Assembly (NCBI GenBank): GCA_007126655.1
Contig: SLAV01000288.1
Location: 1 to 58,080, forward strand
Direction: 5' to 3'
Length of the DNA stretch: 58,080 nucleotides
DNA from: Haloferula sp.
Lineage (GTDB): Bacteria; Verrucomicrobiota; Verrucomicrobiia; Verrucomicrobiales; Akkermansiaceae
The translations under genes were made by a program, and so were the position numbers. Shown one piece after another: positions 40,360-57,315 of the stretch (its first letter is position 1; the number at the start of each line of letters is the position of its first letter). The notes beneath the pieces are model-generated. The model was not told where the DNA came from. It worked only from the letters and a program-made list of their open reading frames with translations, and made no database searches.

Positions 40360-42363
40360 ATGAGTCGCCGCCGGCATCGGGCTTCCGGGGATTCCGGCCG
40401 GGAATCGCGTGATTTCTCCGTCGAGATGGACGGGGATTGGAGTTCAGGTGGCGTCTTCGGTGGATTTCTGGCCCTGTCGTTGGTGGGCGTGTTTTGCGTT
40501 TCGGGTCCGTTCTCTGGCTATCATGCCTGGATGCTGGGCGGGGTTGGCTTGCTGATGGTGTGGTGTCCGCCACGGTTCGCCCTGCCGCGGTCGTGGTGGT
40601 GGTTGGCATTGGGGTTCATGTTGGCCGGCTGCGCGGCGTTCCTTCCGGTTGATTGGTTCGGGATTCCTGAATGGCGCCGGGAACTGGAGGTGCTGGGTCT
40701 GGAGACCGGCTCGCGAGTGGTCATCCAGCAGTGGATTGCAGCGGAAGGGCTGCTGATCTTCTGGATCACTTTGCTGGGCGGGTTCTGGCTCTGTGGGCAC
40801 CGCGGGTCGCCGTTGCAGATCCGGTTCTGGGCCCTTGCCTTCGTGGTGGGTGTGGCATGCTATGCGGTGGTGTCGCGGGTGGTGATCGAGATGCCGGATT
40901 TACACAGAATGACCGGCGGGGGGAATTACGGATTTTTTCCGAACCGGAACCACACCGCGACTTTGCTCGCGATGGGAGCGGTTTGCGGGCTGGGTTGCGC
41001 GTTGCAGGCGATGCGGGACAAGCGCTTCGTGGTGCTGGTGGTCGCGCTGTGTGCCAGTGCGGTTTGCCTGTGGGCGATCGCCGCGTGGTCGATCAGCCGG
41101 GCGGGCGTGGCGTTGGCCGCGGCGGGCGTGCTGATATGGATCTTCATGCTGGGCCGCCGCTATCTGGGTCGTCACGGATTGTGGGCCGTCGGGCTGGTCG
41201 TCGTCGCCGCGGTCGGGTTGTTTCTGGTGACCGGCACCCAGGTGAGGGAGCGGGTGGGGACGACGGTGGAGCGCACCGGCTCGGTGCTGCTCGACGGCCG
41301 CCAGCGCGAACAGGATCCCGAGGCCCTCCGGTCCGCACTCGATTCAGGAATCTTCCTGGATTTCCGGATTCCGGCCTTCCTCGATACCTTGCAATTGATT
41401 CGCTCGCATCCATGGACGGGAGTGGGCGCCCGTCAATACATCCATGTGATGCCCCAATACCGGGATCTGACGATCGTCGCGAACGACTCCTACCTGGTCC
41501 ACCCGGAAAGCGACTGGCTGTGGATGGCCGCCGAAATCGGCATTCCGGGGACGGTCGCGTTGTCGATCCTGGTGGCGCTTGCCGCGTGGAAATCCTATCG
41601 CGGAATTCGCCGCGGACGCGATCGTGCGATCCGTGCCTCATGCCTGGCGGCGGCGCTATTGCTGCCGCTGCATGGACTCTTCGATGTTCCCGGTCACCGC
41701 ATCGCGTTGGCCTGGTGTGCGGTTTTTCTCTACGTCCTCTCGCTGCATCCGCCGGGGGATGATCAGGATGAAGCGCCAAAGCTCCAGCAGACAGGGTTCG
41801 CGGTCATCGGCATGCTGTTGCTATTGGGTTCGGGGTTGCTGGCCCGCGCGCAGTGGTTCGGCGGCATGCCCCCCCCCAGCCAGCAACCCCGGGTGGCCGT
41901 GGAGCGTGCGAATGAGCTTTACCGGCAGGACCGGGCGCTTGAACGGGCCGCGACGGCGGCCGGGCGCGAACATCGGCCGCCTGCCGACGAGGACAAGCTG
42001 CTGGAAGCGATCCGGATTCTCGAAGCGGCAAGGGCCCGGGCTCCGATGGATCGCGACCTGATCCTGCACGAGGCGCGGACGGCGCTGTATTTTGATCATG
42101 AGCACGACCGCGTTGACCACTTGTTCGCGCTCAAGCGTGGACTCAATCCGATCCGGGTGCGGCATGTCCTGATTCAAGCCGAGGCTTGGTCCGGCAGGGA
42201 TCCGGAACGCACCGGTGCCTTGTGGCGGGAGGCAATGGAGCGCGCAAAGAGGGTCGATCAACTGGATCCGGACAACATGTGGTCCAGCCTGCGAACGATG
42301 GAACGAATCGAACGGATGGCGGCGGGCCAGCCGGAACTGGAGGATCAGATTCCCGGCCGGTGA
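40360..42363 (+). CDS. O-antigen ligase/polymerase-like membrane protein with C-terminal helical domain
   Basis: A 667-residue protein with about ten to twelve transmembrane helices and the Wzy_C/ligase motif region: NYGFFPNRNHTATLL, the Ser/Arg-rich SISRAGVALAAAG and a large loop with FRIPAFLDTLQLIRSHPWTG and HPESDWLWMAAEIG. The C-terminal 170 residues are soluble, helical and TPR-like. Such proteins join or polymerise glycan chains on the outer face of the inner membrane and occur in exosortase-linked polysaccharide loci. The ATG at 40360 is chosen over a TTG at 40324. A run of nine C between the membrane and helical parts is noted separately. Confidence 0.85.
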   Translation: MSRRRHRASGDSGRESRDFSVEMDGDWSSGGVFGGFLALSLVGVFCVSGPFSGYHAWMLGGVGLLMVWCPPRFALPRSWWWLALGFMLAGCAAFLPVDWFGIPEWRRELEVLGLETGSRVVIQQWIAAEGLLIFWITLLGGFWLCGHRGSPLQIRFWALAFVVGVACYAVVSRVVIEMPDLHRMTGGGNYGFFPNRNHTATLLAMGAVCGLGCALQAMRDKRFVVLVVALCASAVCLWAIAAWSISRAGVALAAAGVLIWIFMLGRRYLGRHGLWAVGLVVVAAVGLFLVTGTQVRERVGTTVERTGSVLLDGRQREQDPEALRSALDSGIFLDFRIPAFLDTLQLIRSHPWTGVGARQYIHVMPQYRDLTIVANDSYLVHPESDWLWMAAEIGIPGTVALSILVALAAWKSYRGIRRGRDRAIRASCLAAALLLPLHGLFDVPGHRIALAWCAVFLYVLSLHPPGDDQDEAPKLQQTGFAVIGMLLLLGSGLLARAQWFGGMPPPSQQPRVAVERANELYRQDRALERAATAAGREHRPPADEDKLLEAIRILEAARARAPMDRDLILHEARTALYFDHEHDRVDHLFALKRGLNPIRVRHVLIQAEAWSGRDPERTGALWREAMERAKRVDQLDPDNMWSSLRTMERIERMAAGQPELEDQIPGR

Positions 42364-42378
42364 TGAAGATTCCGCCTG

Positions 42379-42408
42379 AAAAAATCCGGCTGATTTTTTC
42401 TTTTTTTT
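42379..42408 (+). terminator. A/T-rich hairpin and T-run after the ligase gene
   Basis: aaaaaatc-cggct-gatttttt forms an eight-pair stem 15 bases past the stop codon, followed by a run of T (cttttttttg). The stem is A/T-rich, so efficiency may be low. Confidence 0.5.
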
Positions 42409-42411
42409 GAT

Positions 42412-42440
42412 TTGACGCAATGTCCGCGGGTCGGCATGAT
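42412..42440 (+). promoter_or_regulatory. Candidate sigma-70 promoter of the DP-repeat protein gene
   Basis: TTGACG (42412-42417), a 17-base spacer and CATGAT (42435-42440) fit a housekeeping promoter with five and four matches to consensus. Initiation about seven bases downstream would fall at the ATG at 42448, giving a leaderless message. Confidence 0.4.
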
Positions 42441-42447
42441 CTCTCCC

Positions 42448-42816
42448 ATGAAGATTTCGTATAGAAAATGCATCGCCGCGTCCGCAGGTTTGATGTTTGT
42501 CCTCGGGGTCACGATTCCGGTTGACGCCATGAGGGCAACTACGACCTCCAATGCCGAAAAATCAGACGGGTTGAAGATCGAAGAAGATAATCCGAAGACC
42601 GGGGAGCGCGAAGATTTGCTTGGTCCGGTGATTCCAGGATTGCCCGGACCTGTGATCCCCAATTTCGATCCGGTCGATCCGGTTGATCCAGGAATACCGA
42701 TCATTCTAGGTGGACGCGATCCCGACCCCGTGGATCCGGTGGTCCCCGGAGTGCCAGTTCGCGATCCCGACCCGGTGGATCCTGTCACGCCAGGTGTCCC
42801 GATCAGCCCGGATTGA
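42448..42816 (+). CDS. Secreted Asp/Pro/Val-repeat protein
   Basis: A 122-residue protein with a signal peptide (about residues 1-27) and a C-terminal half made of short repeats of the form DPVDPV and DPVxPGVP, acidic and proline-rich. It has no PEP-CTERM signal. It sits between the ligase and the PEP-CTERM protein genes, so a role in the surface polysaccharide system is inferred from position only. An alternative ATG at 42436 would add four residues but overlaps the candidate -10 box. Confidence 0.65.
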   Translation: MKISYRKCIAASAGLMFVLGVTIPVDAMRATTTSNAEKSDGLKIEEDNPKTGEREDLLGPVIPGLPGPVIPNFDPVDPVDPGIPIILGGRDPDPVDPVVPGVPVRDPDPVDPVTPGVPISPD

Positions 42817-42893
42817 TCCTGTCGCACCGACATGCGTCCCTTAACGTCTCTTGATTTTTATCCATTCATTATCCACCCCCACTCACCCAACCA

Positions 42894-43715
42894 ATGAAAA
42901 AACTATTCGCTCACATCCTGATTCCAGGAATCATCGCCACGACCGCTCACGCCGCGGTTTTCATATCGGATTTCGACTCCGCCCCCTACGCACCCGGCAT
43001 CGGCCTCGATGGTGTTGATGGATGGACATTGACCGGATCGTCGGCAACCAATGTCGCGTTCATCGGCAACTCTCCCTTCCCTCCTCCCAGCAGTGGTGGT
43101 AGCGCCATTCACCTCGGTTTGAACCCTCTGGATGCGGGCGAATCGAGTGCATACCTATACCAATCCCCATCCAGCGGATTGGTGAACAATCCGGGAGGGT
43201 TCACATCTTTTGGTGCGGAATTCACATTGACCGACAGTTCCGATTCATTTCCCAACCGTGACAGCTTCGCATTCACGTTCCGTGGTGAGAACGATGCGAA
43301 TCTGTTTACCGTTGGATTGACTCCGCAAAGCCAGTCCGTCCAACCCAGTCAGAATACCCGTTTGGACACGCTTTCCTGGAGCAGCGATTACGCAGGAGGA
43401 GGTGCGAACATCGGTACCACACAGCAAGGGGTGGGTTATAACATGAATATCCTGTTCACCCCATCGGGAACAAACGATGTGGACTTCAGCATCAAGTTCT
43501 CCGGCATTCAATTCGCCAGCGGAACATTGGCCGGTGCGGCGAATGAAATCGTCGAAACCTGGGGATTCGAATGGATCTTGTTCGACCAGAACGATCCGGA
43601 CAATGCGGGGACCAACCGTTTGGTGGTGGATGACGTGTCATTCATCCCCGAGCCATCAGCTGCGATGCTCATGATGTTGACGGGTCTCGCCTTCCTGGTA
43701 CGCAGGTCCCGGTGA
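42894..43715 (+). CDS. PEP-CTERM protein, substrate of the exosortase
   Basis: A 273-residue exported protein. The signal peptide is residues 1-19. The body is rich in Ser, Asn and Gly with beta-type segments. The last 24 residues are a complete PEP-CTERM sorting signal: IPEPS, a hydrophobic helix (AAMLMMLTGLAFLV) and a basic tail (RRSR). Exosortases cut such proteins near the PEP motif and pass them to the surface. The exosortase is encoded at 48127-49026. No Shine-Dalgarno sequence precedes the ATG, and a strong terminator follows. It is lower in GC than neighbouring genes. Confidence 0.93.
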   Translation: MKKLFAHILIPGIIATTAHAAVFISDFDSAPYAPGIGLDGVDGWTLTGSSATNVAFIGNSPFPPPSSGGSAIHLGLNPLDAGESSAYLYQSPSSGLVNNPGGFTSFGAEFTLTDSSDSFPNRDSFAFTFRGENDANLFTVGLTPQSQSVQPSQNTRLDTLSWSSDYAGGGANIGTTQQGVGYNMNILFTPSGTNDVDFSIKFSGIQFASGTLAGAANEIVETWGFEWILFDQNDPDNAGTNRLVVDDVSFIPEPSAAMLMMLTGLAFLVRRSR

Positions 43716-43747
43716 ATGGTGATTCCTCCACTCAATCAGAAGATCAC

Positions 43748-43789
43748 AAGACCGCTTTCAGCCATATTCGCGAAAGCGGTCTTTTTTTT
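43748..43789 (+). terminator. Rho-independent terminator after the PEP-CTERM gene
   Basis: aagaccgctttc and gaaagcggtctt form a perfect 12-pair stem around a 12-base loop, followed by a run of T to 43789. It ends the PEP-CTERM transcript and means the next gene needs its own promoter. Confidence 0.95.
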
Positions 43790-43870
43790 GGAGATGAATC
43801 ATTTTCAAGTGAAGGTTCCTGCTTCAAGATTCGATCCGGAAAAATTCCGAACTCCAGATTTCCTGTAGCC

Positions 43871-45589
43871 ATGCACCGTTCAACCATCCTCAAAAGCAGC
43901 GTATCACCTGAACCCGGCTGCCACCCGATAGGTCCGCGTCATCTGGATTCATTTCCTCGAACCAATTCCGGTGTCGTATCCGGCGCAACCGGTCAATCAC
44001 CTGTTGGCGCGGGCCTGGACAGATATCAGCCGCGCTATCTATCGGTCAGTCATGGATTGCTTTTGGCCCTGTGCACAGGGTCGGCATTGACATTGTCGCA
44101 GACCAACGCGCCGCTTGTGACCCCCGAGATCATCCCATTTGAGGATGCCGGGGATGAAAACCAGGTTGAGGAGGCGGAGCTGGGCTTTGGTCTTGAATCT
44201 CCGGAGCTTGCCGATGATGCCTCCCCCGGTGAACCCCTTGACCATGCCTTGCCCGGCATTGACCCTTTGGAATCATTGGCCATACCTGATGACGAGTTTG
44301 GAACGATTCCCTTCGAGGGTGATGAACAGCCGCAACCGGACCAGGAGATGGAAGCCCCGGATTCCGATGAGGCGTGGGCGGTTGAGGAGACCGCCACCGT
44401 GCAGGATGTGTGGGATGATCCCGGTGGTTTGTGGTTTTCCTATGAGCCCGGGCTTACGGCGGGGTGGCCGACTGGATTTGACGATTTCTGGGGCGGCGGA
44501 TTCGCGGGCATGGAGGGCACCATGCTCGGTGCCGTGCGAGAAGGTCTATCCATGGGCGTGTCGCTGGGCGGCAGCTATGATACGAATGTTTCCCAGAGGA
44601 TTGCCTCATTGGGCGGCGGCAGCCAGGGGGACTTTATTACGACTCTAGGCGGAAATGTGAGTTACCGGTCGATCGCGCCGGTATGGACCTTCGGATTCCG
44701 CTATTCGGGTTCCTATCGTTGGTATGCCGACCGCTCGGCTCTCAACGGCTACAACCAGAATGCCGGATCCTCGCTTCACTATAATAGCGGCCCGCTATCG
44801 GCAACGCTCAACCTGGGTTTGAATTTCGGCAGCGGGGCAAACCGGTTATCCGGGACCGTGCTCGATGAGATCCGATACAATTACGGGGTGAACGCACGCT
44901 ATCGCATCAGTCCGAAGACGTCGGTCGCGGGGAATTTTTCCCAGCGATTCACCGATGCATCCGGCGGAATCGACACCAATTCATTCAATGCCGGACTATC
45001 CGCCTACTGGCATTATTCGCCACTGCTGGATTTCGGCCCCGGCATCCGCTACACCCGTCGCGTGGGTGACAGTGGTCCGCGCCGGACTTCGATCGGCCCC
45101 ACCTTGTCGGCGAATTACCAGCTTTCGCAAAAAGTGAGGCTGAACTCAAGGGTCGGCGTGGATTTCGCTTCCTACAGCGATGGTGGATCGACGGATCCGT
45201 CGTTCTCGACTTCGGTTGGGATGAGTTACCAAATCAACGAATTCTCGTCCATGAGCCTGAACCTGCTGCGTGATGTGCAGGCATCCCAGCGGCGCGCGGG
45301 CGAGTTTGAGGAAATGACCGCGGTGCGTCTTGGCTACAACCGGCGCATCCAGCGGGTATCCTGGAGCGTCGGCACGGGCTTCGAAAACCGCAAGAGCAGG
45401 AATGCCACACCGGGGCTCGCCAGGCGGTCGGACCGCAATTACTTTACGGCCGACACCTCGCTCGGGACGCAGGTGTTCACCGAGAGAACGCGTGCAAGCG
45501 TGTTCGCGCGTTATCGCAATCAAAGCGGTGGAATTGACGAATCCTGGGGCTCGCTCAACATCGGGTTCAACATCAGCCACTCGTTCTGA
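43871..45589 (+). CDS. Outer-membrane beta-barrel protein of the polysaccharide locus
   Basis: Up to 572 residues. A hydrophobic export segment lies at about residues 57-76, unusually far from the ATG at 43871, so the true start may be further in, possibly at a non-ATG codon. An acidic, Pro-rich region (about 85-200) is followed by a C-terminal barrel (about 230-572) of alternating strands (GVSLGGSYDTNVSQR, TFGFRYSGSYRWYAD, VAGNFSQRFTDASG) ending in Phe (FNISHSF), the usual outer-membrane barrel signal. Such barrels in exosortase loci are thought to help export polysaccharide. Confidence 0.8.
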   Translation: MHRSTILKSSVSPEPGCHPIGPRHLDSFPRTNSGVVSGATGQSPVGAGLDRYQPRYLSVSHGLLLALCTGSALTLSQTNAPLVTPEIIPFEDAGDENQVEEAELGFGLESPELADDASPGEPLDHALPGIDPLESLAIPDDEFGTIPFEGDEQPQPDQEMEAPDSDEAWAVEETATVQDVWDDPGGLWFSYEPGLTAGWPTGFDDFWGGGFAGMEGTMLGAVREGLSMGVSLGGSYDTNVSQRIASLGGGSQGDFITTLGGNVSYRSIAPVWTFGFRYSGSYRWYADRSALNGYNQNAGSSLHYNSGPLSATLNLGLNFGSGANRLSGTVLDEIRYNYGVNARYRISPKTSVAGNFSQRFTDASGGIDTNSFNAGLSAYWHYSPLLDFGPGIRYTRRVGDSGPRRTSIGPTLSANYQLSQKVRLNSRVGVDFASYSDGGSTDPSFSTSVGMSYQINEFSSMSLNLLRDVQASQRRAGEFEEMTAVRLGYNRRIQRVSWSVGTGFENRKSRNATPGLARRSDRNYFTADTSLGTQVFTERTRASVFARYRNQSGGIDESWGSLNIGFNISHSF

Positions 45590-45661
45590 GTGGCAGATCC
45601 CCCGGGTAACCCGAACCATTCGCGGAAGGTGTCATCGGGAAAAACGGATCATGCGGGCGGG

Positions 45662-46336
45662 ATGAAGCCGGAAATCACGGATTCCGGACAGGTGCGCCGC
45701 ATCGTGTTCATCTTGTGTGACGGGTCGAAGTTTTCCGGTAAACTGCCCGATGTGTTGGGCAGGTCCGGCATGGACGTGCGGCGGATCGGACAACCGGACG
45801 ATCTCCGCGGTTTGCGCGCACCACAATCGCCTGCCTGCCTGCTTTGCATGGGTGGGGGGGACGGGGCGGGCGCTCTGGCGGATGCGGTGATCGCGGGGAT
45901 CGGCGAGCGGCATCTGCCCCTGCCCGTCGTGTTTCTCGCGGAGCGCTGGGACTTGCGAACGGCGGTTCGCCTGATGAAGAGCGGCGCGAGCGACGTGGTC
46001 TCATACGCGGATCGTGGCGTGGACGTGGCGTCCATCATCGAGCGCGCGATTCATGAGGCGCTCGCCGGGTGGGCGCGCGCCCGCGCGGTTGCGGATGCGA
46101 AGGCACGCATGGCGAGCCTTTCCGACCGCGAGCGCCAGATCATCGGTCTTGCCCTTCAGGGTCTGCTCAACAAGGAGATTGCCGACGAATTGGGTCTCGC
46201 GCTGGTGACCATCAAGATCTATCGGGCGAAGGCGATGAGGAAAATCGGTGCGGGCAACGCGACCGAAATGGGCCACATCGCGGCCCTGGCCGGATTGTGT
46301 TCCGGGCATGCGGGCGTCACGTCTCACTCTGGATGA
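45662..46336 (+). CDS. LuxR-type regulator with a degenerate receiver domain
   Basis: A 224-residue FixJ/NarL-type protein. The C-terminus (about 150-210) is a LuxR helix-turn-helix (LSDRERQIIGLALQGLLNKE, then ALVTIKIYRAKAMRKIG). The N-terminal 115 residues align with a receiver fold but the acidic pair is CDG, the phospho-acceptor position reads Met (CLLCMGGG) and the conserved Lys is missing, so it cannot be phosphorylated in the normal way. The ATG at 45662 is used; a GTG at 45590 directly after the barrel gene's stop is also possible. Its 3' end overlaps the TPR-like gene on the other strand by 20 bases. Confidence 0.85.
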   Translation: MKPEITDSGQVRRIVFILCDGSKFSGKLPDVLGRSGMDVRRIGQPDDLRGLRAPQSPACLLCMGGGDGAGALADAVIAGIGERHLPLPVVFLAERWDLRTAVRLMKSGASDVVSYADRGVDVASIIERAIHEALAGWARARAVADAKARMASLSDRERQIIGLALQGLLNKEIADELGLALVTIKIYRAKAMRKIGAGNATEMGHIAALAGLCSGHAGVTSHSG

Positions 46337-48071
46337 GCGAGGTGAATTTGCGGCGTTCGAAGGATTGCAGCTCGTCCCAGGGGAAGTTGGCGAGGGCGGG
46401 GTGGTCGGCGGTGATTTCACCGGTCAGCAGGCGGGTGACGAGAAAGACGATCCGGAACGGCGGCGAAAGCGATTCGACCTCATGATCAAACGGCCGTAAA
46501 ACGCGGGATGCCTGTTCGGGATTTCCGGCGCAGAGGTGGGCTGAGGCGAGGGTGGTGTGGATCGGCAATTCGTCGGGAAAAGACTTGGCCAGCCTTTCGA
46601 GTGGCTCGATCACGATGGCGGGATCCATGGCGTCGGTGAGCGCCGATATGTAGGCGAACTGGGTCAGCAGGACCGGGTTGGCCGGCTCGAAGTTGAGGTA
46701 GATTGCGCAGATTTCGAACAGGGTGTGGTCGCGGTTGCTATTGGCGAGTGTCTGATAGACGTGCTTGATGTCCTCGTAGAGTGGCAGCGGGCCGTTGCCG
46801 TTGCGAATCGCCTCGGTCATGGCCTCAACGGCGATCTCCCGGAGGCCGGCACGCATTGCGATGCGATGCATTTCGATCAGCGCGCGGTTGGTGGGATCGG
46901 AACGGGCTTCCGCAATGGCGGAGCGCCAGGATTCACCGCGCGTGGCGGAGTCCCCGAGCTTTGCCGCGGCAACCGCGCGATGTGTCAGCGAGAGGTGTGG
47001 CGGCAGATGCATCGCGGCGGCATCTTCGTCGAGCAGTTCGATCAGTGTTTCCCAGGCGTTGGCCTGCCAGGCCGCATCGAGCAAAACCGGCATCAGATCC
47101 GGGTCGGATTCGATGCGGGCGGGTGGAAACGCTTCGAAGAGCGCCTCATGCAGGCCCGCGTCACGCAGGAAATTGGCCAGATCGACGGGCGCGCGATCGC
47201 GCCATTTTTCCACCAGTGTGTTGATTTCCGGCGCGGCTCGTTGGGGTGTGTTGGCGAGGTCGATCCTGGCTGCCGCGAATGTGAGGCGCGCAGGGTCGGC
47301 CTGGCCCGGGGCATCCATCAGCTGTTGGATCGCCTGCGAGAGCAGGTCGTCACGCAGGTTGGGAATCGGGATGGATTCGAGCACATCGAGCCATTTCGAA
47401 GTGTCGGTGGTGTTGCCGTTCGCCTCCGCGAGGGAGCGGGCGATCATTCGCCGGGCTTCGGCGAATCCTTCTTCGCGTCCACTGGCGACGAGCAGCCGTG
47501 CGAGGCGGGTGCGAAGGCGGTCGTCGCGCGCGTCTTCCGGGACGGCGAGGAGCACCTGCGCGCTTTCGCCGAACCGTTGCTCGGTCATCAGGCGGTCGGA
47601 AAAGGCGATGGCGAATTCCGGGCGGGTGCGTTCGTCTTCGTCGAGCCTGGAGGCCCATGCCTGGCCGGCAAGGCCGAGGGGCATGGAGGCGGCGATCTGC
47701 ACGAAGCCGGTGTGGCGGTCTTCCTGGGTGGCATCCGGATGTGAGAGCAGGCTGTTCGCGATCTGGCCGTGGCGGGGGTCGGTGAGGTGCCGGGTCGCCC
47801 GTTCGAGGATGCGCAGCGCCTCAAGGCTCCTGCCACCGGAACGCAGCACGGTGAGCGAGAGGTCGCGGGCTTCCAGCATGCGGTCGGCTTCGTCGGCGCG
47901 GTGTGCGGCGACGAGGATGCGCTCCATCCGCCATTCCCTGAAGAGGCGGTAACCCGGGCCGATGACGATCAGGGTGGCGATCGCGAGGATCATGAGCATG
48001 GCGGCGAGCCGGATCAATGGATGCAGATTCATCCATTGGCTGTGAAGGCTGGAGAGTTTGCTACGGGGCAT
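46317..48071 (-). CDS. Membrane-anchored TPR-like protein of the exosortase locus
   Basis: A 584-residue protein with one transmembrane helix (about residues 18-42) and helical repeats throughout the rest, compatible with TPR or similar units. TPR proteins of this kind are regular members of exosortase loci. It follows the exosortase gene by 55 bases on the same strand. No catalytic motif was seen. An internal ATG 13 codons downstream is also possible. Confidence 0.75.
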   Translation of the reverse strand: MPRSKLSSLHSQWMNLHPLIRLAAMLMILAIATLIVIGPGYRLFREWRMERILVAAHRADEADRMLEARDLSLTVLRSGGRSLEALRILERATRHLTDPRHGQIANSLLSHPDATQEDRHTGFVQIAASMPLGLAGQAWASRLDEDERTRPEFAIAFSDRLMTEQRFGESAQVLLAVPEDARDDRLRTRLARLLVASGREEGFAEARRMIARSLAEANGNTTDTSKWLDVLESIPIPNLRDDLLSQAIQQLMDAPGQADPARLTFAAARIDLANTPQRAAPEINTLVEKWRDRAPVDLANFLRDAGLHEALFEAFPPARIESDPDLMPVLLDAAWQANAWETLIELLDEDAAAMHLPPHLSLTHRAVAAAKLGDSATRGESWRSAIAEARSDPTNRALIEMHRIAMRAGLREIAVEAMTEAIRNGNGPLPLYEDIKHVYQTLANSNRDHTLFEICAIYLNFEPANPVLLTQFAYISALTDAMDPAIVIEPLERLAKSFPDELPIHTTLASAHLCAGNPEQASRVLRPFDHEVESLSPPFRIVFLVTRLLTGEITADHPALANFPWDELQSFERRKFTSLIQSET

Positions 48072-48126: not shown

Positions 48127-49026
48127 TCAGGTGTTGTTGTTCCGGTCCACCCGCACGCGGCGCAGGCGGCGGCGGGGTTTTGCATCACCGAGCCAGCCGG
48201 AGACGAGGAAGAAAAACGCCGCGCTGACGAGGAATGCGAGCACGCCGAGCCAGTCGTGGGCGCGGTCGAAGGCTTCCACGCCGTGGTCGAAACGGATCGT
48301 TGCCAGCGCCCAGGTGCGCACGGTGTTGACCAGGAAGGCCGCGCCGCAGGCGATGACCAGAAGGAGCGCCACCCTGGAGGCACGCATGCGCTGGAGTTCG
48401 GCGAAAAACCAGGTGGCCATGACGAAGCTCTGGAACGACCTCACGCCACTGCAGCCATCGGTCACCTCGACGGAAAAACCGTGCAGGATGATGCGCACAC
48501 CCTCGATTTCGACCGGCCGGCCGGACAATTGGAACCACTCGACCGCGGCGTGCATCACGGCGTGGGTGAGTTTTTCGACGAGGTGGTGCTCGATGGCGGT
48601 CGGCCACGGGATGGCGGACATGGCCAACAGCGTGATCCAGCAGAACGAGGCGGAGGTTTTCCAGCCGTGGGTGGCGGTGACGATGGCATGTCCGCAGGCG
48701 GCCGCTGTGACGGCGAGGAGGGCCATCGGGATTCGCCATGCGGGGTCGGCCTGGCCGAGGATGCGCAATGCGAGGAGCCATGGCACCAGGGCGATGGCCG
48801 CCACGAGGATCCACCGCCAGGGAAGGGGGGCGGCGGGGGATTCCAATGTGCGCCAGCGCCGTGCGAGCAGCCACAGCGCGGCGGGCGGGACGAACCAGCC
48901 GTAATCGTAGTATTCGCCATGACGCCAGCCGTATGAGGCGGCGATCATCGCGGGAACCCAGAGCGCGGCGACCAGCACGGGTGCGGTCCAGGCGGATTCC
49001 CGGCGCGGATTGGGTGGCGTGGGCAT
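48127..49026 (-). CDS. xrt: Exosortase
   Basis: A 299-residue inner-membrane protein with about eight helices and the full exosortase catalytic set: Cys192 in VEVTDGCSGVRSF, Arg237 in FLVNTVRTWAL, and His257 in RAHDWLG. It is a transpeptidase-like enzyme that recognises PEP-CTERM signals and is thought to join the cleaved protein to a surface glycan. The substrate is encoded at 42894-43715. The ATG at 49026 is preferred; a GTG at 49083 would add 19 residues. The sequence alone does not settle the exosortase subtype. Confidence 0.95.
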   Translation of the reverse strand: MPTPPNPRRESAWTAPVLVAALWVPAMIAASYGWRHGEYYDYGWFVPPAALWLLARRWRTLESPAAPLPWRWILVAAIALVPWLLALRILGQADPAWRIPMALLAVTAAACGHAIVTATHGWKTSASFCWITLLAMSAIPWPTAIEHHLVEKLTHAVMHAAVEWFQLSGRPVEIEGVRIILHGFSVEVTDGCSGVRSFQSFVMATWFFAELQRMRASRVALLLVIACGAAFLVNTVRTWALATIRFDHGVEAFDRAHDWLGVLAFLVSAAFFFLVSGWLGDAKPRRRLRRVRVDRNNNT

Positions 49027-49095
49027 GCGGAAAGTGCCGGAATGTTGCGGTGATGGATGGAAAACCAAGAAAGCACCGGTCACAAGTGCGGGCTT

Positions 49096-51054
49096 TTACC
49101 TGGCGAAGAGTTCCAGATCCTTGGGCGTGGAACCGTCCGGAGGTTGTTTATCCTGGTCCCCGGGCGGCGTTTCGACGGGTATCGATTGCAAACCGACGTT
49201 CCAGTGATGGATTTTCAGTTGATGCCGGGTGGCATAAGCCGTCAGCGTATCGAGCAGCTCGCGGGAAGGGTGATTGATGGCGACGATGATGCCGCGCAGC
49301 CCCCGGGTTTCGACCAGTTGCGGGATTTCAGAGATGCCGCCGAGGATTCGGAACGAACGCAGGCGGCGGCCGTGGAGTGCTTTTGATTCATCCAGAAAGC
49401 CGAGGATGCGCATGTCGGGATAGTCGCCGTGGGAGCTGGATTTGAGATGATCGAGGAAAAGCGTGCCGAAGTCGCCGGCTCCGAGCACCGCCACCGGGCC
49501 AAAGCCATCGGCGGCATCGTTTTCCGGCTGGCGCGGATTGCCGTGATAGGCTTCAAGCGCGTATTCGCGGCACACGTCGAGGAAGCCGCGCGGGATGCAG
49601 ATGGCGATGGATGCGAACACATGGGCGAGCAACGCCATGCGCAGGTTCGACCATTGCGTGTCACCCGCGGCAAGACTGAACAGGGTGAAAGTGGCCAGCG
49701 CGGCGATCAACAACCAGAAAAAGAGGCCGATCAGCTGGCGCATCGTCGCGCGGACCCAGAGCGTGAGGTGCACGCGTGCGAATAGCGTCGCAAGGCCGCC
49801 AAAGATGGTGAAAATGGCCGCGAACTGGAGCGGCGGAATGCCGGACGGGCGGGTCAGGAAATTGGTTTCGATGAGCACGGCGCACGACGCGGCGCAGACG
49901 AGCGCCAACAGGTCGTAGGCGAACAGGGAGACGGCCAGCATGCGGCTCCGGACCGGGAGCTTGATCGCCATGTGGATGACGCTGCCGGTTTGCACCAGCT
50001 CGACCCGTGCGAAGTGGCGGATGCCGACCAGGGCGACGATGATCAGGCCGATCAGTGAGAATACGAGCACCCGGTCCCCGAACATCATCGGCAGGAAGGC
50101 GAGCATCGCGAGCAGGATGGCGATTCCCTGGAGGATGAGCGCGACCTTGCGTTGCGATCCTTTCGAGTCGAGCAGGCGGTGGTGGAGGTGGTCGCGGTCG
50201 GCGTCGAAGATGCCGCTGGCGTCGTCCTCGCCGCGGAGTTTGCGGACGATCCGGCGCGCGCCGCGCCGCCAGATGGCGAGGAGCACATCGAGCAGCGGGA
50301 CGCCGGCCACGGCGATGGGAAGCAGGATCATGCCGGCGACGGCGCGGCGTCCGACGGCATCGGTGGCGGCGGTTGCGAGGAAGAGGCCGATGAGCATCGA
50401 GCCGGCGTCGCCAAGGAAGATGCGCGCCGGGTTGAAGTTGTATCTGAGGAAGCCGAGGATCGCACCACCCATGACGAGGAGGAGCAATGCGGCGTCGGTG
50501 CGTTCGTTGGAGAGGGCGATGCCGGCCAGGCCGAGGGTGGCGACCGCGGCCAGGCCGCCGCACAGACCGTCGAGTCCGTCGATGAGGTTGAACGCGTTGA
50601 TGAGCACCACCGCCCAGATGACGAAGGCGACCTTGTCGAGGCCGTCGGGCCATGAATCGGGAAACAGCCAGTTGTCGATCGGGTGGAGGGTCAGGAAAAA
50701 AATCGGAGCGAGGGCGTGCGCGCCCAATTTGATGAACGGCGTCAGCCCGTGGCGGTCATCGAGGATGCCGGCGATCATCAGCACGCCGGAGCTGGCGGTG
50801 AATGCGCCGAGCCACTTCCATGACAAGTTGCCACCTGGATCGATGAGGCCGGTGGCCAGGCCGGCGGAGATGACGATCAGGAAACTCAGCCAGATGGCGA
50901 TGCCGCCGGCGCGGGGGATCGGCGTTTGATGGATGCGGCGCGCGCCGGGCTGGTCCATCAGGCCGACCTTCGGTGCCAGGTGAATCATCATCCGGTTGAG
51001 GGCCACCGAGACGCATACGGCCAGGAGGGTGGCGATCACGAATTGAAAAAACAT
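49096..51054 (-). CDS. WecA-like HexNAc-1-phosphate transferase fused to a nucleotide-binding module
   Basis: A 652-residue protein of two parts. Residues 1-350 are a polyprenyl-phosphate sugar-1-phosphate transferase (WecA/MraY family) with the DD motif (about 99-100), AFNLIDGLDGLCGG, ARIFLGDAGSM and DRDHLHHRLLD. Residues about 370-500 hold further helices, and 515-620 form a Rossmann-like domain with VLGAGDFG (523-530) resembling the N-terminal part of WbpM/FlaA1-type sugar-nucleotide dehydratases, whose catalytic domain is absent. The first part would start lipid-linked glycan synthesis; the role of the second is unknown. Confidence 0.85.
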   Translation of the reverse strand: MFFQFVIATLLAVCVSVALNRMMIHLAPKVGLMDQPGARRIHQTPIPRAGGIAIWLSFLIVISAGLATGLIDPGGNLSWKWLGAFTASSGVLMIAGILDDRHGLTPFIKLGAHALAPIFFLTLHPIDNWLFPDSWPDGLDKVAFVIWAVVLINAFNLIDGLDGLCGGLAAVATLGLAGIALSNERTDAALLLLVMGGAILGFLRYNFNPARIFLGDAGSMLIGLFLATAATDAVGRRAVAGMILLPIAVAGVPLLDVLLAIWRRGARRIVRKLRGEDDASGIFDADRDHLHHRLLDSKGSQRKVALILQGIAILLAMLAFLPMMFGDRVLVFSLIGLIIVALVGIRHFARVELVQTGSVIHMAIKLPVRSRMLAVSLFAYDLLALVCAASCAVLIETNFLTRPSGIPPLQFAAIFTIFGGLATLFARVHLTLWVRATMRQLIGLFFWLLIAALATFTLFSLAAGDTQWSNLRMALLAHVFASIAICIPRGFLDVCREYALEAYHGNPRQPENDAADGFGPVAVLGAGDFGTLFLDHLKSSSHGDYPDMRILGFLDESKALHGRRLRSFRILGGISEIPQLVETRGLRGIIVAINHPSRELLDTLTAYATRHQLKIHHWNVGLQSIPVETPPGDQDKQPPDGSTPKDLELFAR

Positions 51055-51271: not shown

Positions 51272-52558
51272 TCAGCGCGGTGCGGCGAGAAGCGTCGCGG
51301 CGCGCGCGGCGTTGGGGCCGCGTTGGAAATGTGCGGCGGCGAATTCGGCGGCGGCGCCTCCGCGCGATTCGCGGACGTCCGGGTCTCGGGCCTCGTCGAT
51401 GGCCCGGGCGAGCGCGCGGGTGTCGCCGGGGGCGACCACCCAGCCGCCGCCGCTTTCGTCGATCCAGCGGCTGATTGCCGAGTGGCTGTCGCCGATGAAG
51501 ATCACCGGCCGTCCCGCGGTGAAGATGCCCTGGAGTTTGCTGGGCAGCATGGTTCCCGTCCATTTCGCATCCAGCGAGGCGAGATGGACGTCGGCGCTCA
51601 TGAGGTGGGTGTGGAGGATCTCCGCCGGGGCGTAATCGTGAAGTTCGACCGGGGCGTCCGGTCGTTCCGCCAGGAATGCCTCGATTTCGTCGCGCCGTTT
51701 CCCCGCGCCGAAGAAGACGAAGCGGGCCGGCGGCGGATGCCGCGCGGGAGTGCCGCGGATGACCTCGAGGATTTCGGAGAACCGGTGTCCGAGTCCCATG
51801 TTTCCAGAATACATCACGATCATCTGGTCGTCCGTCCAGCCCATTTCGCGGCGTCGCGCGGCGATCCGGGCCGCATTGTCTTCCTCGCGCCTTTGCTTGC
51901 GGGGTTCGGTGCTCCACAGGGGGATCCAGGCGGGTTCCGGGGCGGTGCCCCGTGTTTGCCGCGCGAGAGTCGCGGCCATGTCGGGGCCGAGGGTGAGCCG
52001 GGCGGCGGCGCGGTTGCCGCCGATGCCCCAGCCGGCAAGCCCTGCCAGCAACCGGTGCGGGATGCCGCTGTCGCGGAGCATGCCGTGCGCGACCATCACG
52101 TCGGGGTACACGTCCATCACCCAGTGGGCGTGGTCGCAGCCGAGCGGTTTCGACATCGCCCGCGCCAGCACCGCGAGGTATGGCGGGGTGGTGAGCGCGA
52201 CGATGCGGCCGGGCCGCGGGCGGATCACCGCGAGCCGGAATGCCACACCGAGGTAGTAGGACGCGTAATCCGCAAGCTTGCCGAGGAACGTGCCCCTGCC
52301 GAACCGTGTCGCGCGGATGCGGATGACGCGGCAGCCGGTGTCATTTCCGGTGGCGGGATCGGAGCGGTCCGCGGAATGGGCGTCACTGGGCCGGTCGCGC
52401 GCGGGCCTGGCTCCCGCCGCCTCCGCATATCCGCCCGCGGCGCAGATCACCGTGACCCGGTGGCCCTGCGACCGCAATTCCTCCACCACCGCCGCCAGCA
52501 TCACGCCGGTCGGCGCGGCATCGGGGGGATGATATTGGTTGAGGAAGACCAGGTGCAT
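51272..52558 (-). CDS. GT4-family glycosyltransferase (WcaI/WbuB-like)
   Basis: A 428-residue glycosyltransferase of the GT-B fold with a start typical of WbuB-like enzymes (MHLVFLNQYHPPDAAPTG), VMDVYPDVMVAHGM, the donor-site region VMYSGNMGLGHRF, and SKLQGIFTAGRPVIFIGD with an acidic residue-rich nucleotide site. It transfers a sugar from a nucleotide donor to a growing glycan. A low-complexity insert (about residues 45-75) is unusual. Confidence 0.88.
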   Translation of the reverse strand: MHLVFLNQYHPPDAAPTGVMLAAVVEELRSQGHRVTVICAAGGYAEAAGARPARDRPSDAHSADRSDPATGNDTGCRVIRIRATRFGRGTFLGKLADYASYYLGVAFRLAVIRPRPGRIVALTTPPYLAVLARAMSKPLGCDHAHWVMDVYPDVMVAHGMLRDSGIPHRLLAGLAGWGIGGNRAAARLTLGPDMAATLARQTRGTAPEPAWIPLWSTEPRKQRREEDNAARIAARRREMGWTDDQMIVMYSGNMGLGHRFSEILEVIRGTPARHPPPARFVFFGAGKRRDEIEAFLAERPDAPVELHDYAPAEILHTHLMSADVHLASLDAKWTGTMLPSKLQGIFTAGRPVIFIGDSHSAISRWIDESGGGWVVAPGDTRALARAIDEARDPDVRESRGGAAAEFAAAHFQRGPNAARAATLLAAPR

Positions 52559-52725: not shown

Positions 52726-53538
52726 TTATCGGGACGCCCTGCGCGCTTCACGGATTTTGACGGTGATGAGGAAGTCGTAGAATGCCTGGAGCATGCAGTA
52801 GGCGAAGCCGGGATAGCCGTCGAGGAATCCGCGTTTGGCGATGTAGAGGTAGAGGAATTTGGCGATCCAGCGGCCCGGCAACCGGGCGTGGATGCGCTTC
52901 ATCGCGCGCCGTCGTGCGATCCCGCCGCGCGGCAGATCGCGGAGGGGAATCGGGCCGGTGGTCAGCGCGGACGACTCCCGGGCCTCCTCGTCGGAATACC
53001 GGTTGTGTTTGGCGACCCACTCGGCGATGCCCTTGGAGAAGTTGAAGTGGTCGTATGCGGTGTGGATGTGGCCGACGCCGCGTTTGGCTTGATCCTCGCG
53101 CTGGCCGTGTCCGGCTTTGGCAAATCGTAATTCGCCGATTTTGAGGAACCGCACCTGGGGGTGGGGGTATTGGGTGGCGTGGCGGATCCAGCGTCCGAGG
53201 AAGATGATGCGGTTGGGCACAAAATAGGCGCTGTGTTGATCCCGCACCATGACCCGTTCACATTCCGTCCGCAATTCGTCGTTGAAGCGTTCATCCGCGT
53301 CGAGATGAAAGACCCACGGGTGTTTGAAGGCGATGTGGTCGAGCGCGTGGTTGCGCTGGGCTCCGAAGTCGTCGAACGCGCGCTCGAAAACCCGCGCGCC
53401 TTGCGTTTCCGCGATGTCGCGGGTGGCGTCGGTGCTGTGGGAGTCGAGCACGACGACGTCGTCGCACCATGCGACCGACCGGAGGCATTCGGGCAGGTTG
53501 TTTTCCTCGTCTTTGGTGAGGATGAGGATGGAGAACAT
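52726..53538 (-). CDS. GT2-family glycosyltransferase (WaaE/KdtX-like)
   Basis: A 270-residue enzyme with the GT2 start MFSILILTKDEENNLPECL, the segment VVVLDSHSTDATRDIA and the metal-binding DxD in FHLDADERF. The C-terminal half has HFNFSKGIAEWVAKHNRYS and a membrane-associated helix near the end (GFAYCMLQAFYDFLI), as in WaaE-type transferases. It probably extends the lipid-linked glycan. The ATG at 53538 is the natural start; the longer frame upstream has no similarity. Confidence 0.9.
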   Translation of the reverse strand: MFSILILTKDEENNLPECLRSVAWCDDVVVLDSHSTDATRDIAETQGARVFERAFDDFGAQRNHALDHIAFKHPWVFHLDADERFNDELRTECERVMVRDQHSAYFVPNRIIFLGRWIRHATQYPHPQVRFLKIGELRFAKAGHGQREDQAKRGVGHIHTAYDHFNFSKGIAEWVAKHNRYSDEEARESSALTTGPIPLRDLPRGGIARRRAMKRIHARLPGRWIAKFLYLYIAKRGFLDGYPGFAYCMLQAFYDFLITVKIREARRASR

Positions 53539-53594: not shown

Positions 53595-54431
53595 TCAGCC
53601 GGCGGCACCGGCGTTGGCGCGGATGTGCGACGGGTCGAACATCGAGCACAGGACGACGCTGCGGGGGAAATCCTCCCAGAGTTTGCGCAGGGTCGCGGTC
53701 GGATCGAGTCCGCCGCGGTGGCGCATGGGCGAGAAGATGACATTCGGCGAGCCGGCGCGGGCCGATCGCGCGTTTTCGTAGTGTCCGGCGCCAGGGGACG
53801 CGTCGAACTGGAGGACATCGAAGGCGTCGATGATGGATTCGAGGGCGGGGAGTTGGCGCCAGCCGAATGCCAGGCCCCATGCGCGGATTTTGCCTTCGTC
53901 CTTGAGCCGGGCGGCGGTTTCGGAGAGTTCGTCGATGTGCGGGATTCCCGCGGTCGGCTCGTGGACGAAGAACAGGTCGAGGTGGTCGGTCTTGAGCGCG
54001 CGGAGGCTATGTTCGAGGTTGCCGCGCATTTCGGCGGCCGTGAGCGGCACGCGTTCGTGGAACGGGTCTTTGCGAGCCGGGGATTGCGGCGCGGGAGTGG
54101 TGGATTGACCGGGTGGGCCGCCACGGCGGGGGCGGATCGTGCGGACGAGTGGTTTGAGCGGGCGCAGCAGCGAGGCTTTCCAAGTCGCGCGGATGCCGAA
54201 TTTGCTGGCGATCACGACTTCGTCGCGGCGGCCGTGGAGGAACCGGCCGAGGAATTTTTCGGCCTCGCCGTATCCGTATGAGCGCGCGACGTCGAAGTGG
54301 GTGATGCCATGGTCGAGGGCGGTGCCGAGCGCGCGCTCCGCTTGTCCGGCACCGACCGCACCCAGGATGGGCGCGCAGCCGAACCCGAGGATTGACGATT
54401 GCACGCCTTGGGCGAGTTGGACGGTTTTCAT
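53595..54431 (-). CDS. Aldo/keto reductase
   Basis: A 278-residue NADPH-dependent oxidoreductase of the TIM-barrel aldo/keto reductase family with the catalytic tetrad visible: Asp and Tyr in THFDVARSYGYGEAE, Lys in IASKFG and His in LFFVHEP. An Arg/Pro-rich insertion (about residues 98-130) is unusual. It lies within the polysaccharide cluster and probably modifies a sugar or sugar-derived carbonyl; this is inferred from position. Confidence 0.88.
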   Translation of the reverse strand: MKTVQLAQGVQSSILGFGCAPILGAVGAGQAERALGTALDHGITHFDVARSYGYGEAEKFLGRFLHGRRDEVVIASKFGIRATWKASLLRPLKPLVRTIRPRRGGPPGQSTTPAPQSPARKDPFHERVPLTAAEMRGNLEHSLRALKTDHLDLFFVHEPTAGIPHIDELSETAARLKDEGKIRAWGLAFGWRQLPALESIIDAFDVLQFDASPGAGHYENARSARAGSPNVIFSPMRHRGGLDPTATLRKLWEDFPRSVVLCSMFDPSHIRANAGAAG

Positions 54432-54473
54432 GTGGGAGATGGTGGGGGTGGATGCGGGATCCGGAGGCAGTTG

Positions 54474-56156
54474 CTACGGTGCGCCGGGAACCGCAGGCTC
54501 CTGCGGGGAGGATGCGAGGTGGCGGGCCAGGCGGATCGCGAACATGCCGAGGAAGAAGGTGGGGTTGGCCTGGCTGGAGGTCGGGAATACCGAGCTGCTG
54601 CAGACGTGGAGGTTTTCGGTTCCCCACACGCGGAGGTTGCGATCGACGACTCCGGATTCGGGGGATGCCGCGATCCGTGTGGTGCCGCTCTGGTGGATGC
54701 CGTCGCGCGACATCCGGCGGATGGCGTCGGCGCGTTGGTTTTCAGGGAACCAGTATTCGAGTTCCCCGCATCCGCATTCGCGCAGCCAGGCGTCGAGGAT
54801 TTCGTGGACACGGATCACGGATTGGACGTCCCCGTCGGTGAGGCGGTAGTGGATTTCGAGGGTTTCGCCATCGTCGGCGAGCCGCATCCGGTTGTCCGGG
54901 TCGGGCAGCTGCTCCGCGTGAAAGTGGAGGGCGTATCGATTTTGCGGGTTGTGGAGGAAAATGCCGGGCAGTTTGCGTTTGAGGCAGTATCTCCAGAAGA
55001 AGGTGGTGGCGGGAATGACGATGGACGAGGGGATGTCGCGGATCACGTTGAGGATGTGTGCCGGGACGCGGTGGACCCTGCCCTTGGTGACCGAGTTGGC
55101 GATGGCGGGTGGTGCGAGCCGTTTGCCGAGCACCGGGGTGACCATCGCGAGATACATCAGGGACATCGCGCCGTTGCGGTGCGCCGGCTCGTGGTAGAGC
55201 GGGTTGTCGAGCCAGATCGCGGTGTTCAGCAGGTTTTCGCGGCAGAGCGCTTCGGTGCGCAGTTGGAACCGGCGGCGGAAATAGGATCCGTCCGGATCGC
55301 GGTGGAATCCGTGGTCGGTCGCCCGCGGGACGCCGGAGAAGCGGACGCTGGCGATTTTCCCCGAGACGTGGCCCTGGTAATATCGGCCGAGCGCTGCGGG
55401 AGGACCGCCGATGGTATCGAAGATGCGGGTGTTGCGCAGGAGGATGCGGGTGGTCTCCTGGGTGCCCGCGGCGATGACGAACGATGCCGCGCGGACGGGC
55501 ACGGTCGTGCCGGACGGCGCGTGGCGGAATTCGATGGAAGTGACGCGCCCGTGCGCATCGGAGTGGATGTCGCGGGCTTCGAGGTTGAGTCCGAGGGTGA
55601 GGTTCGGCGTGTTTTCGATTTCCCTGCGGTAGCGGCTGCCGAAGCGGGTCGGCATGCTCCAGCGTTCCACGACGCTGTCGAGCACGTCGCCCTCGCGGAA
55701 TCCGTCGGCGATGCGGTGTTCCCGCAGGTGCGGCATGTCGGTGGTGCGGAACGGGCCGGTTCCGCATTCGAAGTATGCGGCCGAGTCTTCGCGATACCGG
55801 CACACTTCTTCGAAGAGCGCCGTGTCCCAGGTACAGTGGTCGCGGACGACCGGGCGTTCGATGAAGTCCACCTCGTCATACATCACGCAGCGTCCGCCCC
55901 AGGTGATGGACGATCCGCCGAGTCCCTTGTTGGTGCACTCGTATGGGTCGTGGTGGTTGGCGGGATTGAGGTTGTGGATGGAATCGTCGAGCGAATTGCG
56001 CGCGGCCTCCTTGTGTCCGCCGAATTCGGTGAGCAGGACGTGCCGCGAGGGGTTGTTTCTGGCGAATTCGATGGCGGCGATCATGCCGGCGGGTCCGCTG
56101 CCGATCACGCAGAGATCGTAGCGGTCCGAGAGGGCGGATGGATGGGGCGCGATCAT
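54474..56156 (-). CDS. GMC-family FAD oxidoreductase
   Basis: A 560-residue flavoprotein with the FAD-binding motif IGSGPAGMIAAIEFARNN, the GMC-type GLGGSSITWGGRC, and a C-terminal domain with MSRDGIHQSGTTRIA, VWGTENLHVCSSSVFPTSS and ANPTFFLGMFAI. It oxidises alcohols or polyols; in polysaccharide clusters such enzymes probably act on sugar units. The ATG at 56156 overlaps the stop of the acetyltransferase gene (ATGA), so the two are coupled. The longer open frame upstream has no similarity. Confidence 0.9.
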   Translation of the reverse strand: MIAPHPSALSDRYDLCVIGSGPAGMIAAIEFARNNPSRHVLLTEFGGHKEAARNSLDDSIHNLNPANHHDPYECTNKGLGGSSITWGGRCVMYDEVDFIERPVVRDHCTWDTALFEEVCRYREDSAAYFECGTGPFRTTDMPHLREHRIADGFREGDVLDSVVERWSMPTRFGSRYRREIENTPNLTLGLNLEARDIHSDAHGRVTSIEFRHAPSGTTVPVRAASFVIAAGTQETTRILLRNTRIFDTIGGPPAALGRYYQGHVSGKIASVRFSGVPRATDHGFHRDPDGSYFRRRFQLRTEALCRENLLNTAIWLDNPLYHEPAHRNGAMSLMYLAMVTPVLGKRLAPPAIANSVTKGRVHRVPAHILNVIRDIPSSIVIPATTFFWRYCLKRKLPGIFLHNPQNRYALHFHAEQLPDPDNRMRLADDGETLEIHYRLTDGDVQSVIRVHEILDAWLRECGCGELEYWFPENQRADAIRRMSRDGIHQSGTTRIAASPESGVVDRNLRVWGTENLHVCSSSVFPTSSQANPTFFLGMFAIRLARHLASSPQEPAVPGAP

Positions 56157-56701
56157 CGTGGGGCGGCGAGGTCGGGTTTGGCCGCGGCGTCGCGCGGTTT
56201 GATTGCGCGCGCCGGATTTCCCGCGTAAACCGTCCAGTCTTGGAGATCGCGGGTGGCGACGGAGGCGGCGCCGAGCACGGCTCCCTCGCCGGCGCGGACG
56301 CCGGGTAGCATCACCGCACGCGAGCAGATCCACGCGTAGGGGCCGATCTCGATGCGCTTCGACACCAGCGGGAATTCCGGATCCTGGAAGTCATGGGTCG
56401 CCCCGCACAGGAATGCCTCCTCTGAGATGATCGCGTGGTGACCGATGAACACGCCGCCGACATTGTAGAGGTTCACGTTGGAGGCGATTGTGGCGACGTC
56501 GCCGGTTTCAAGCAGCCAGGGCGCCCAGATTTTCGCGGTGGGATAGATGAAGTTGTTTTTCCCGAGTCTGGCTCCGAAGCGGCGCAGGATGAAGCAGCGC
56601 CAGCGGTGCATCGGGTTGGGCGTCGGCCGGCACAGGAGCGCCCAGCAGAAATGAAAAAGGGCCCTGCGAACCTTGTTTCGCATGCCCTGCATTGGACGCA
56701 T
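56153..56701 (-). CDS. Hexapeptide-repeat acetyltransferase (WcaF-like)
   Basis: A 182-residue protein with left-handed beta-helix repeats (TAKIWAPWLLETGDVATIAS, IEIGPYAWICSRAVMLPGVR, GEGAVLGAASVATRDLQDW) and the family end VYAGNPARAIKPR. It O-acetylates a sugar, probably on the polysaccharide. The ATG at 56701 overlaps the ydcF-like stop as TGATG; ATGs at 56692 and 56683 are also possible. Coupled to the GMC oxidoreductase by a four-base overlap. Confidence 0.9.
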   Translation of the reverse strand: MRPMQGMRNKVRRALFHFCWALLCRPTPNPMHRWRCFILRRFGARLGKNNFIYPTAKIWAPWLLETGDVATIASNVNLYNVGGVFIGHHAIISEEAFLCGATHDFQDPEFPLVSKRIEIGPYAWICSRAVMLPGVRAGEGAVLGAASVATRDLQDWTVYAGNPARAIKPRDAAAKPDLAAPR

Positions 56702-57315
56702 CAGCGGATCGGGGTGCCCGGGGTCGTGTTGGCCGTGGAGAGGCATGTGCGTCGGTTGCGGAAGCTGTTGATGCGGTGGCGGAGCAGGTAATAGATCGCG
56801 GCCGCGCGCTCGCGTCGGCGGAACTCTGCCTGCCAATCCGAGAAAGGTCGAGCACTCGCTTCGGTCGCGACCACAAAGTCGCGGTCCGGGTGGGTGGTGC
56901 GGAAAACCGCAAGGGCTCGCGGTGCGTGGAAATCATTGGTGACCAGCACGATCTGGCCCTCCGCTTTCCCGATCCACGGGGCGGTCAACCGCGCGTTTTC
57001 AAGGGTCGATGTCGCATTCGGCTCGACGACGATGCGCGCGGGGTCGAGACCGCCGCGACGCAGTGCCGCCTGCTGGTATCCGCCGTCGCCGGTGACGACG
57101 ACCGGAGGGTCGGGGAAACGCTCCGCCAGTTGCAGCGCGACGGTGGCGCGCGCCAGGTTGCCGCCGCCCAGCACCACCACGAGTTCCGGATCGTCCGGCT
57201 TGCCGATCGGCCCGGTTGCCGGCCAGTCGCCCCACCAGATCCAGGCTGCCGCAAGCCCTGCAAACACCAGCATGGCGATGGTGCATGCGACGAGAATGCG
57301 GAGGATCAAGCGCAT
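56701..57315 (-). CDS. YdcF/DUF218-family envelope protein
   Basis: A 204-residue protein with one N-terminal transmembrane helix (about residues 5-27) and a DUF218 domain: ELVVVLGGGNLARATVALQL, VVVTGDGGYQQAALRRGG, NATSTLENARLT and LVTNDFHAPRALAVFRTT. DUF218 proteins are linked to cell-envelope and polysaccharide metabolism. It is the first gene of the minus-strand cluster, whose genes run on with one- and four-base overlaps. Confidence 0.88.
   Translation of the reverse strand: MRLILRILVACTIAMLVFAGLAAAWIWWGDWPATGPIGKPDDPELVVVLGGGNLARATVALQLAERFPDPPVVVTGDGGYQQAALRRGGLDPARIVVEPNATSTLENARLTAPWIGKAEGQIVLVTNDFHAPRALAVFRTTHPDRDFVVATEASARPFSDWQAEFRRRERAAAIYYLLRHRINSFRNRRTCLSTANTTPGTPIR

Follow-up and report, generated by a model that had tools for sequence, protein, structure and literature searches.

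The DNA analyzed here, a 58,080-nucleotide stretch of Haloferula sp. (contig SLAV01000288.1 of assembly GCA_007126655.1; hereafter the window, contig C254 in our numbering), carries an exopolysaccharide gene cluster that is probably a mosaic of three modules, each kept elsewhere in the Akkermansiaceae. Modules A, B and C adjoin in the window and lie in separate places in relatives, so that exopolysaccharide synthesis, export and protein sorting come together here in a lineage-specific way. The layout of the modules is unusual and its parts are all of familiar kinds; what is new and most useful is a conserved unit of ligase, PEP-CTERM and barrel genes. The locus likely serves to make, decorate and export an exopolysaccharide that a lectin-like protein keeps on the cell surface. 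The genome (390 contigs, 4.1 Mb, 95% complete) was compared with 195 genomes of the family, and gene starts were trimmed by eye from the longest open reading frames (ORFs). Handles beginning with G, C, L and g are our own labels for genomes, contigs, loci and genera.

All the genes named in a preliminary description of this DNA were recovered by profile matches or in the sequence itself, and the DUF218 gene at 56701-57315 belongs to the cluster as well. As to whether the gene order is the standard layout in relatives, the complete layout is not standard, and the separate modules are conserved.

A conserved unit of ligase, PEP-CTERM and barrel genes

Module A contains the following genes:
40324-42363, forward strand: Wzy_C-family O-antigen ligase/polymerase-like membrane protein with C-terminal repeats (PF04932, 62.9 bits, cut-off 31.7)
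42451-42816, forward strand: short secreted Asp-Pro-rich repeat (DP-repeat) protein, from sequence and translation
42894-43715, forward strand: PEP-CTERM protein with a ConA-like jelly-roll domain (TIGR02595, 17.5 bits, cut-off 16)
43868-45589, forward strand: outer-membrane beta-barrel of 18 strands with an acidic, Pro-rich N-terminal stretch (strand prediction; TIGR03016, E 5e-8)

Homologues of the ligase occur in 30 of the 195 genomes. We read the DNA downstream of every one of them and counted by eye; among the 27 loci with enough sequence, a PEP-CTERM gene is the next clear same-strand gene after the ligase, short secreted ORFs aside, in 11 (L101, L102, L104, L105, L113, L116, L127, L128, L129, L131 and L133). 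At L105, L113 and L116 this order runs on to a barrel and then a short Wza. The ligase-PEP-CTERM module was found in at least three genera (g1, g7 and g11). A scan of named genomes gave a PEP-CTERM match downstream of the ligase in 16 of 67 cases, one of which (L204) was a false pattern match, leaving 15 true cases; the background rate, 0.034 per 2.4 kb of strand, would give about 2. The true cases all fall among the closer ligase homologues, and the loci named as Spartobacteria, Chthoniobacterales or Opitutales yielded no such case in the scan. The cases are not independent events, since the two sets have members in common and come from related genomes. Approached from the other side, a search with the PEP-CTERM protein stripped of its tail found homologues in only five other genomes, in four of them directly after a ligase homologue. 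Judged from sequence comparison, what relatives keep together is a sugar ligase and a lectin-like surface protein, rather than an exosortase and its neighbour.

The preliminary description had counted the secreted DP-repeat protein beside the PEP-CTERM gene among the hints of an unusual modified glycan and perhaps of a dedicated exosortase-substrate pair. The protein is present, and it is one of several short secreted proteins that follow the ligase in relatives: other short secreted low-complexity or Pro-rich ORFs occupy its position at L105, L107, L108 and L133. At L102 (9813-14318, contig C66 of G120) two ligase homologues stand in tandem, and the PEP-CTERM gene follows the downstream copy.

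The PEP-CTERM protein has a signal peptide-like start, the PEP motif, a helix and a basic end, and is a near miss for PF07589 (20.2 bits, cut-off 20.7). Its AlphaFold model, with a predicted local distance difference test score (pLDDT) of 79.7, consists of a ConA-like jelly roll and a C-terminal helix. The best structural match (VIA-align) is sialidase BT_1020 (Z 18.3, root-mean-square deviation (rmsd) 3.1, 184 residues); sialidases of Akkermansia, GH16 enzymes and lectins come next. The GH16 catalytic motif ExDxxE is absent from the protein, and therefore our guess for the ConA-like domain is binding rather than hydrolysis.

The barrel scores 32.2 against TIGR03016 (PEP-CTERM-associated outer membrane protein), below the cut-off of 90.85. 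Its model has exactly 18 predicted strands, with pLDDT 70-90 for most barrel residues, and its best structural match is AlgE (Z 20.6, rmsd 4.4, 306 residues), tied with other 18-strand porins; a first Foldseek list headed by unrelated receptors was set aside. The position of the barrel after the PEP-CTERM gene is conserved in relatives. Barrel and short Wza are paired at L103, L105, L113 and L116, and the matching Wza of the present genome, on contig C340, is the counterpart of the relatives' Wza proteins (56-61% identity); the usual operon therefore appears to be split between C254 and C340. This genome has a second Wza, on contig C126, which shows only distant similarity to the C340 protein. 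This second Wza forms part of a second set of short Wza, Wzc-like and barrel genes (L222, 6406-10639).

In Myxococcus, the 18-strand barrel EpsX has AlgE as its closest structural match and works with a short OPX protein (PMC9601211). The window barrel probably resembles the EpsX/EpsY and WzpX/WzaX systems (PMC9601211, PMC9603273), with its 18 predicted strands, AlgE as best match and, in relatives, a short Wza gene after the barrel gene. It differs from them in that barrel and Wza are here on different contigs and in that Wzy_C and PEP-CTERM genes precede the barrel.

It has long been open how PEP-CTERM proteins act on exopolysaccharide and to which partners exosortases join them. One reading of the conserved order, which we regard as rather unlikely, is that the Wzy_C enzyme acts as a protein O-ligase and couples the glycan to the ConA-like PEP-CTERM protein encoded beside it, before or during sorting. 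It would fit that Wzy_C proteins include ligases and that the two genes adjoin in at least three genera also where the rest of the cluster is missing; however, 16 of the 27 ligase homologues have no PEP-CTERM gene after them, and the barrel and Wza often found downstream suit a polymerase in an export operon equally well. The window ligase is like the exosortase-A-associated O-ligase family TIGR03097 (PEP_O_lig_1) in being a Wzy_C-type ligase of a PEP-CTERM organism, but no match to that profile was obtained in the window with E values allowed up to 10; the only match in this genome, below cut-off, is an ORF of contig C296. Our literature search found no paper naming both PEP-CTERM and an O-glycosylation ligase. 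That ligase, ConA-like PEP-CTERM protein and export barrel form a previously undescribed Akkermansiaceae device, in which the ligase attaches exopolysaccharide to the sorted protein, is in our estimate unlikely. If it were true, the exosortase system would be a route to covalent anchoring of polymer on a surface protein. Occurring together across genera, the three genes offer a small, defined set for testing a protein-polymer link, and such tests are possible in cultured relatives, e.g. Luteolibacter pohnpeiensis and L. marinus.

The exosortase and its neighbours

Module B, on the opposite strand, contains:
46317-48071, reverse strand: TPR-like membrane-anchored protein, the conserved partner of the exosortase (adjoins it in 7 of 7 orthologous loci)
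48127-49026, reverse strand: exosortase of an additional paralogue clade, without EpsI beside it (PF09721, 119.8 bits, cut-off 25.7)
49096-51054, reverse strand: WecA-like initiating sugar-phosphate transferase fused to a nucleotide-sugar-binding-like domain (PF00953, 111 bits)

The most likely gene starts are 48071 for the TPR protein and 49026 for the exosortase. Exosortases are present in 166 of the 195 genomes, and the present genome has three: that of the window; one on C340, whose locus also encodes Wza, Wzc, a TPR protein and EpsI-like proteins; and one of the general type on C299, with EpsI adjoining. The window exosortase passes TIGR04178 (58.8, cut-off 23) and stays below the cut-offs of the named classes (XrtA, XrtB, XrtC, XrtD, XrtV and others), the best being XrtA with 80.2 against 208; XrtV gave 76.3 against 313. 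It is rare, with orthologues (45-57% identity) in 7 of the 195 genomes besides its own, and forms a clade with them (support 100/99) inside a larger group that holds the C340 copy and leaves out the general type (support 100/100). The TPR gene lies directly downstream of the exosortase in all seven orthologous loci, at 30-45% protein identity. No EpsI (DUF3485-like) motif was found near the window exosortase or in the stretches read of the seven orthologous loci. Loci of the sister clades do carry EpsI; in G108, WecA, exosortase, EpsI, TPR, barrel, Wza and Wzc stand in a row.

The preliminary description had proposed a dedicated exosortase-substrate pair, with the window exosortase processing solely the PEP-CTERM protein encoded 4.4 kb away. 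We consider this very improbable. The two genes are neighbours in the window, and the PEP-CTERM homologues first found by sequence were all in genomes with exosortases of the same larger group; yet homologues also follow the ligase in G155, G125, G026, G013 and G137, where an exosortase of this group is missing (no match to the window exosortase in the first four, a weak match of the general type only in G137). Co-occurrence of the exosortase with the local genes thus breaks down for the PEP-CTERM gene and, because the ligase-PEP-CTERM order is found in genomes lacking this exosortase group, the PEP-CTERM gene goes with the ligase and barrel. Nor does any of the seven orthologous loci have a PEP-CTERM gene beside the exosortase, L075 alone having any within the stretch read. 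The tail is also an ordinary one. PF07589 gave 51 matches in the genome at E up to 10, 43 at E < 0.05 and 28 over cut-off, a few of them in short frames and maybe due to chance; tails elsewhere in the genome, e.g. IPEPSTALLGGIGMLCLLRRRR, are of the same class as the local IPEPSAAMLMMLTGLAFLVRRSR. The "single local PEP-CTERM substrate" is accordingly single inside the window only, as one of about 28-43 tails by profile count in a genome with three exosortases. Across the family, PEP-CTERM tails are found in 185 of the 195 genomes. The expectation to be corrected is that the nearest PEP-CTERM gene must be the partner of an exosortase.

It is also conceivable, if quite improbable, that this exosortase clade and its TPR protein act on the polysaccharide machinery or on a few unlinked substrates, the nearness to module A being accidental. 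The exosortase-TPR pair is constant and its neighbours vary: the WecA fusion, whose residues 380-616 resemble the EPS_sugtrans N-terminal domain, stands beside it in four loci (G164, G117, G158 and the window), and a Bac_transf enzyme takes that place in four others (G061, tested with Pfam, and, judged by the same length and ending, G172, G088 and G074). The missing EpsI would fit as well, as would PEP-CTERM numbers that are not raised where the clade is present. Against this, the catalytic C211, R256 and H276 (counted from the long ORF 48127-49083) are invariant across 26 aligned exosortases, and the protease/transpeptidase chemistry is therefore likely kept. We had considered that the exosortase clade might drive the number of PEP-CTERM proteins; the seven carriers have 38, 6, 8, 21, 32, 13 and 12, not more than elsewhere, and the idea was dropped. 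The exchange of Bac_transf for the WecA fusion beside the same pair, at L074, L077, L079 and L080, amounts to a swap of the first sugar step.

PEP-CTERM/EpsH systems were first noticed in Verrucomicrobium spinosum, which has 65 PEP-CTERM proteins (Haft et al. 2006, PMC1569441). As in these systems, the window exosortase is encoded amid genes for exopolysaccharide, PEP-CTERM proteins are numerous in the genome, and a TPR protein belongs to the system (PMC1569441). Unlike them, the window exosortase has no adjoining EpsI, its TPR protein matches no NCBIfam model, and it belongs to an extra clade under the named-class cut-offs.

Glycosyltransferases and sugar-tailoring enzymes

Module C contains:
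51272-52558, reverse strand: WcaI-like glycosyltransferase of family GT4 (profile searches)
52726-53538, reverse strand: GT2-family glycosyltransferase (PF00535, 46.5 bits)
53595-54431, reverse strand: aldo/keto reductase (AKR) with the catalytic Asp, Tyr, Lys and His motifs (PF00248, 89.8 bits)
54474-56156, reverse strand: GMC oxidoreductase (PF05199, 71 bits; FAD motif, C-terminal His and Asn motifs)
56153-56695, reverse strand: WcaF-like hexapeptide acetyltransferase, overlapping the GMC start by 4 bases (PRK10502, 162 bits, below the cut-off of 192)
56701-57315, reverse strand: DUF218 (YdcF-like) membrane-anchored protein (PF02698, 69.7 bits; same place in L215 and L076)

Of the 195 genomes, just two (G143 and G060) have a homologue of the GMC enzyme at 64-65% identity, each time adjoining an AKR homologue. 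G143 keeps the whole order of DUF218, acetyltransferase, GMC, AKR, GT2 and GT4 as in the window. Module C is partial in G060, G126 and G068, with a GalE-like gene inserted in two of them; in G068 it continues into a TPR-like gene and an exosortase. Since the GMC-AKR pair also accompanies GT2 and GT4 in other genera, it is a real cassette and no local oddity. The unusual modified glycan of the preliminary description is thereby supported in part; the glycan chemistry is putative. An oxidase encoded beside a reductase suggests oxidation and then reduction at one carbon. The DprE1/DprE2 epimerase works in this way, with protein families that differ from GMC and AKR.

Proposed role of the cluster

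From the gene identities and their conserved order we infer the following sequence of biochemical steps. The WecA-like protein would begin the glycan on a lipid carrier, GT4 and GT2 would extend it, and the WcaF-like enzyme would O-acetylate it. GMC and AKR might act in turn on a single sugar position, first oxidising and then reducing it, which would amount to epimerisation by two enzymes. In the periplasm, the Wzy_C protein would polymerise or transfer the glycan, which may pass the outer membrane through the AlgE/EpsX-like barrel with short Wza and Wzc, both encoded on C340. The exosortases of the genome would process PEP-CTERM proteins, the local ConA-like one included, and these proteins would keep the polymer on the cell; the window exosortase with its TPR partner would add one more processing enzyme, whose action would not be limited to the product of the gene nearby.

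Several points weigh against this account of a mosaic exopolysaccharide cluster. There is no flippase in the window. Wza and Wzc are encoded on a different contig, and joint work of the window genes with C340 is therefore deduced from relatives. In addition, fold matches such as those predicted for the barrel and the jelly roll are common to many unrelated functions.

A role of the PEP-CTERM protein in holding polymer would have a parallel in Aquincola, where PepA converts soluble polymer into bound polymer (PMC9850573). As in the PepA/PrsT floc system (PMC9850573), a PEP-CTERM gene and a TPR gene lie close together in the context of exopolysaccharide; in the window the PEP-CTERM protein is a different one and its gene has no canonical sigma-54 site nearby.

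Control elements and neighbouring DNA

Two further features accompany module A:
43751-43789, forward strand: terminator-like hairpin with a T-run behind it, downstream of the PEP-CTERM gene (seen in the sequence itself)
45590-46336, forward strand: LuxR/FixJ-like regulator with a degenerate receiver (GerE, 54.4 bits; FixJ-like alignment)

The label "pseudo-receiver" is fair for the regulator, since the GerE domain is present and no Pfam receiver match was found. The hairpin is missing from the list of the consensus terminator scan, which allows loops of up to 8; neither the sigma-70 promoter scan nor the terminator scan gave an excess over shuffled sequences. Control of the sigma-54/PrsK-PrsR kind was considered and rejected, the only two near-canonical sites in the whole window (16098 and 32411) both lying elsewhere than upstream of the PEP-CTERM gene. 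The window also encodes a sensor kinase and an NtrC-like sigma-54 activator at 32539-35528, an AtoS/AtoC-like pair; with the PEP-CTERM response regulator model the activator, at 34125, reaches 363.6 bits, short of the cut-off of 502.6.

Divergent from the ligase gene, at 37614-40214, lies the gene of a large TPR-bearing protein with a lipoprotein-like signal (LLAACS). At the contig end, 57500-57709 encodes a C-terminal piece of a 23S rRNA intervening-sequence/bAvd-like protein. Low-complexity, repeat-like intergenic DNA, reading SLVPGPWSLVPG, KHQAPSTKHQAQ or similar, is found at 57713-58018 of the window, at 1-773 and 5700-5940 of L035 and at 5755-6213 of L078; it sits near exosortase loci in this genome and in one relative.

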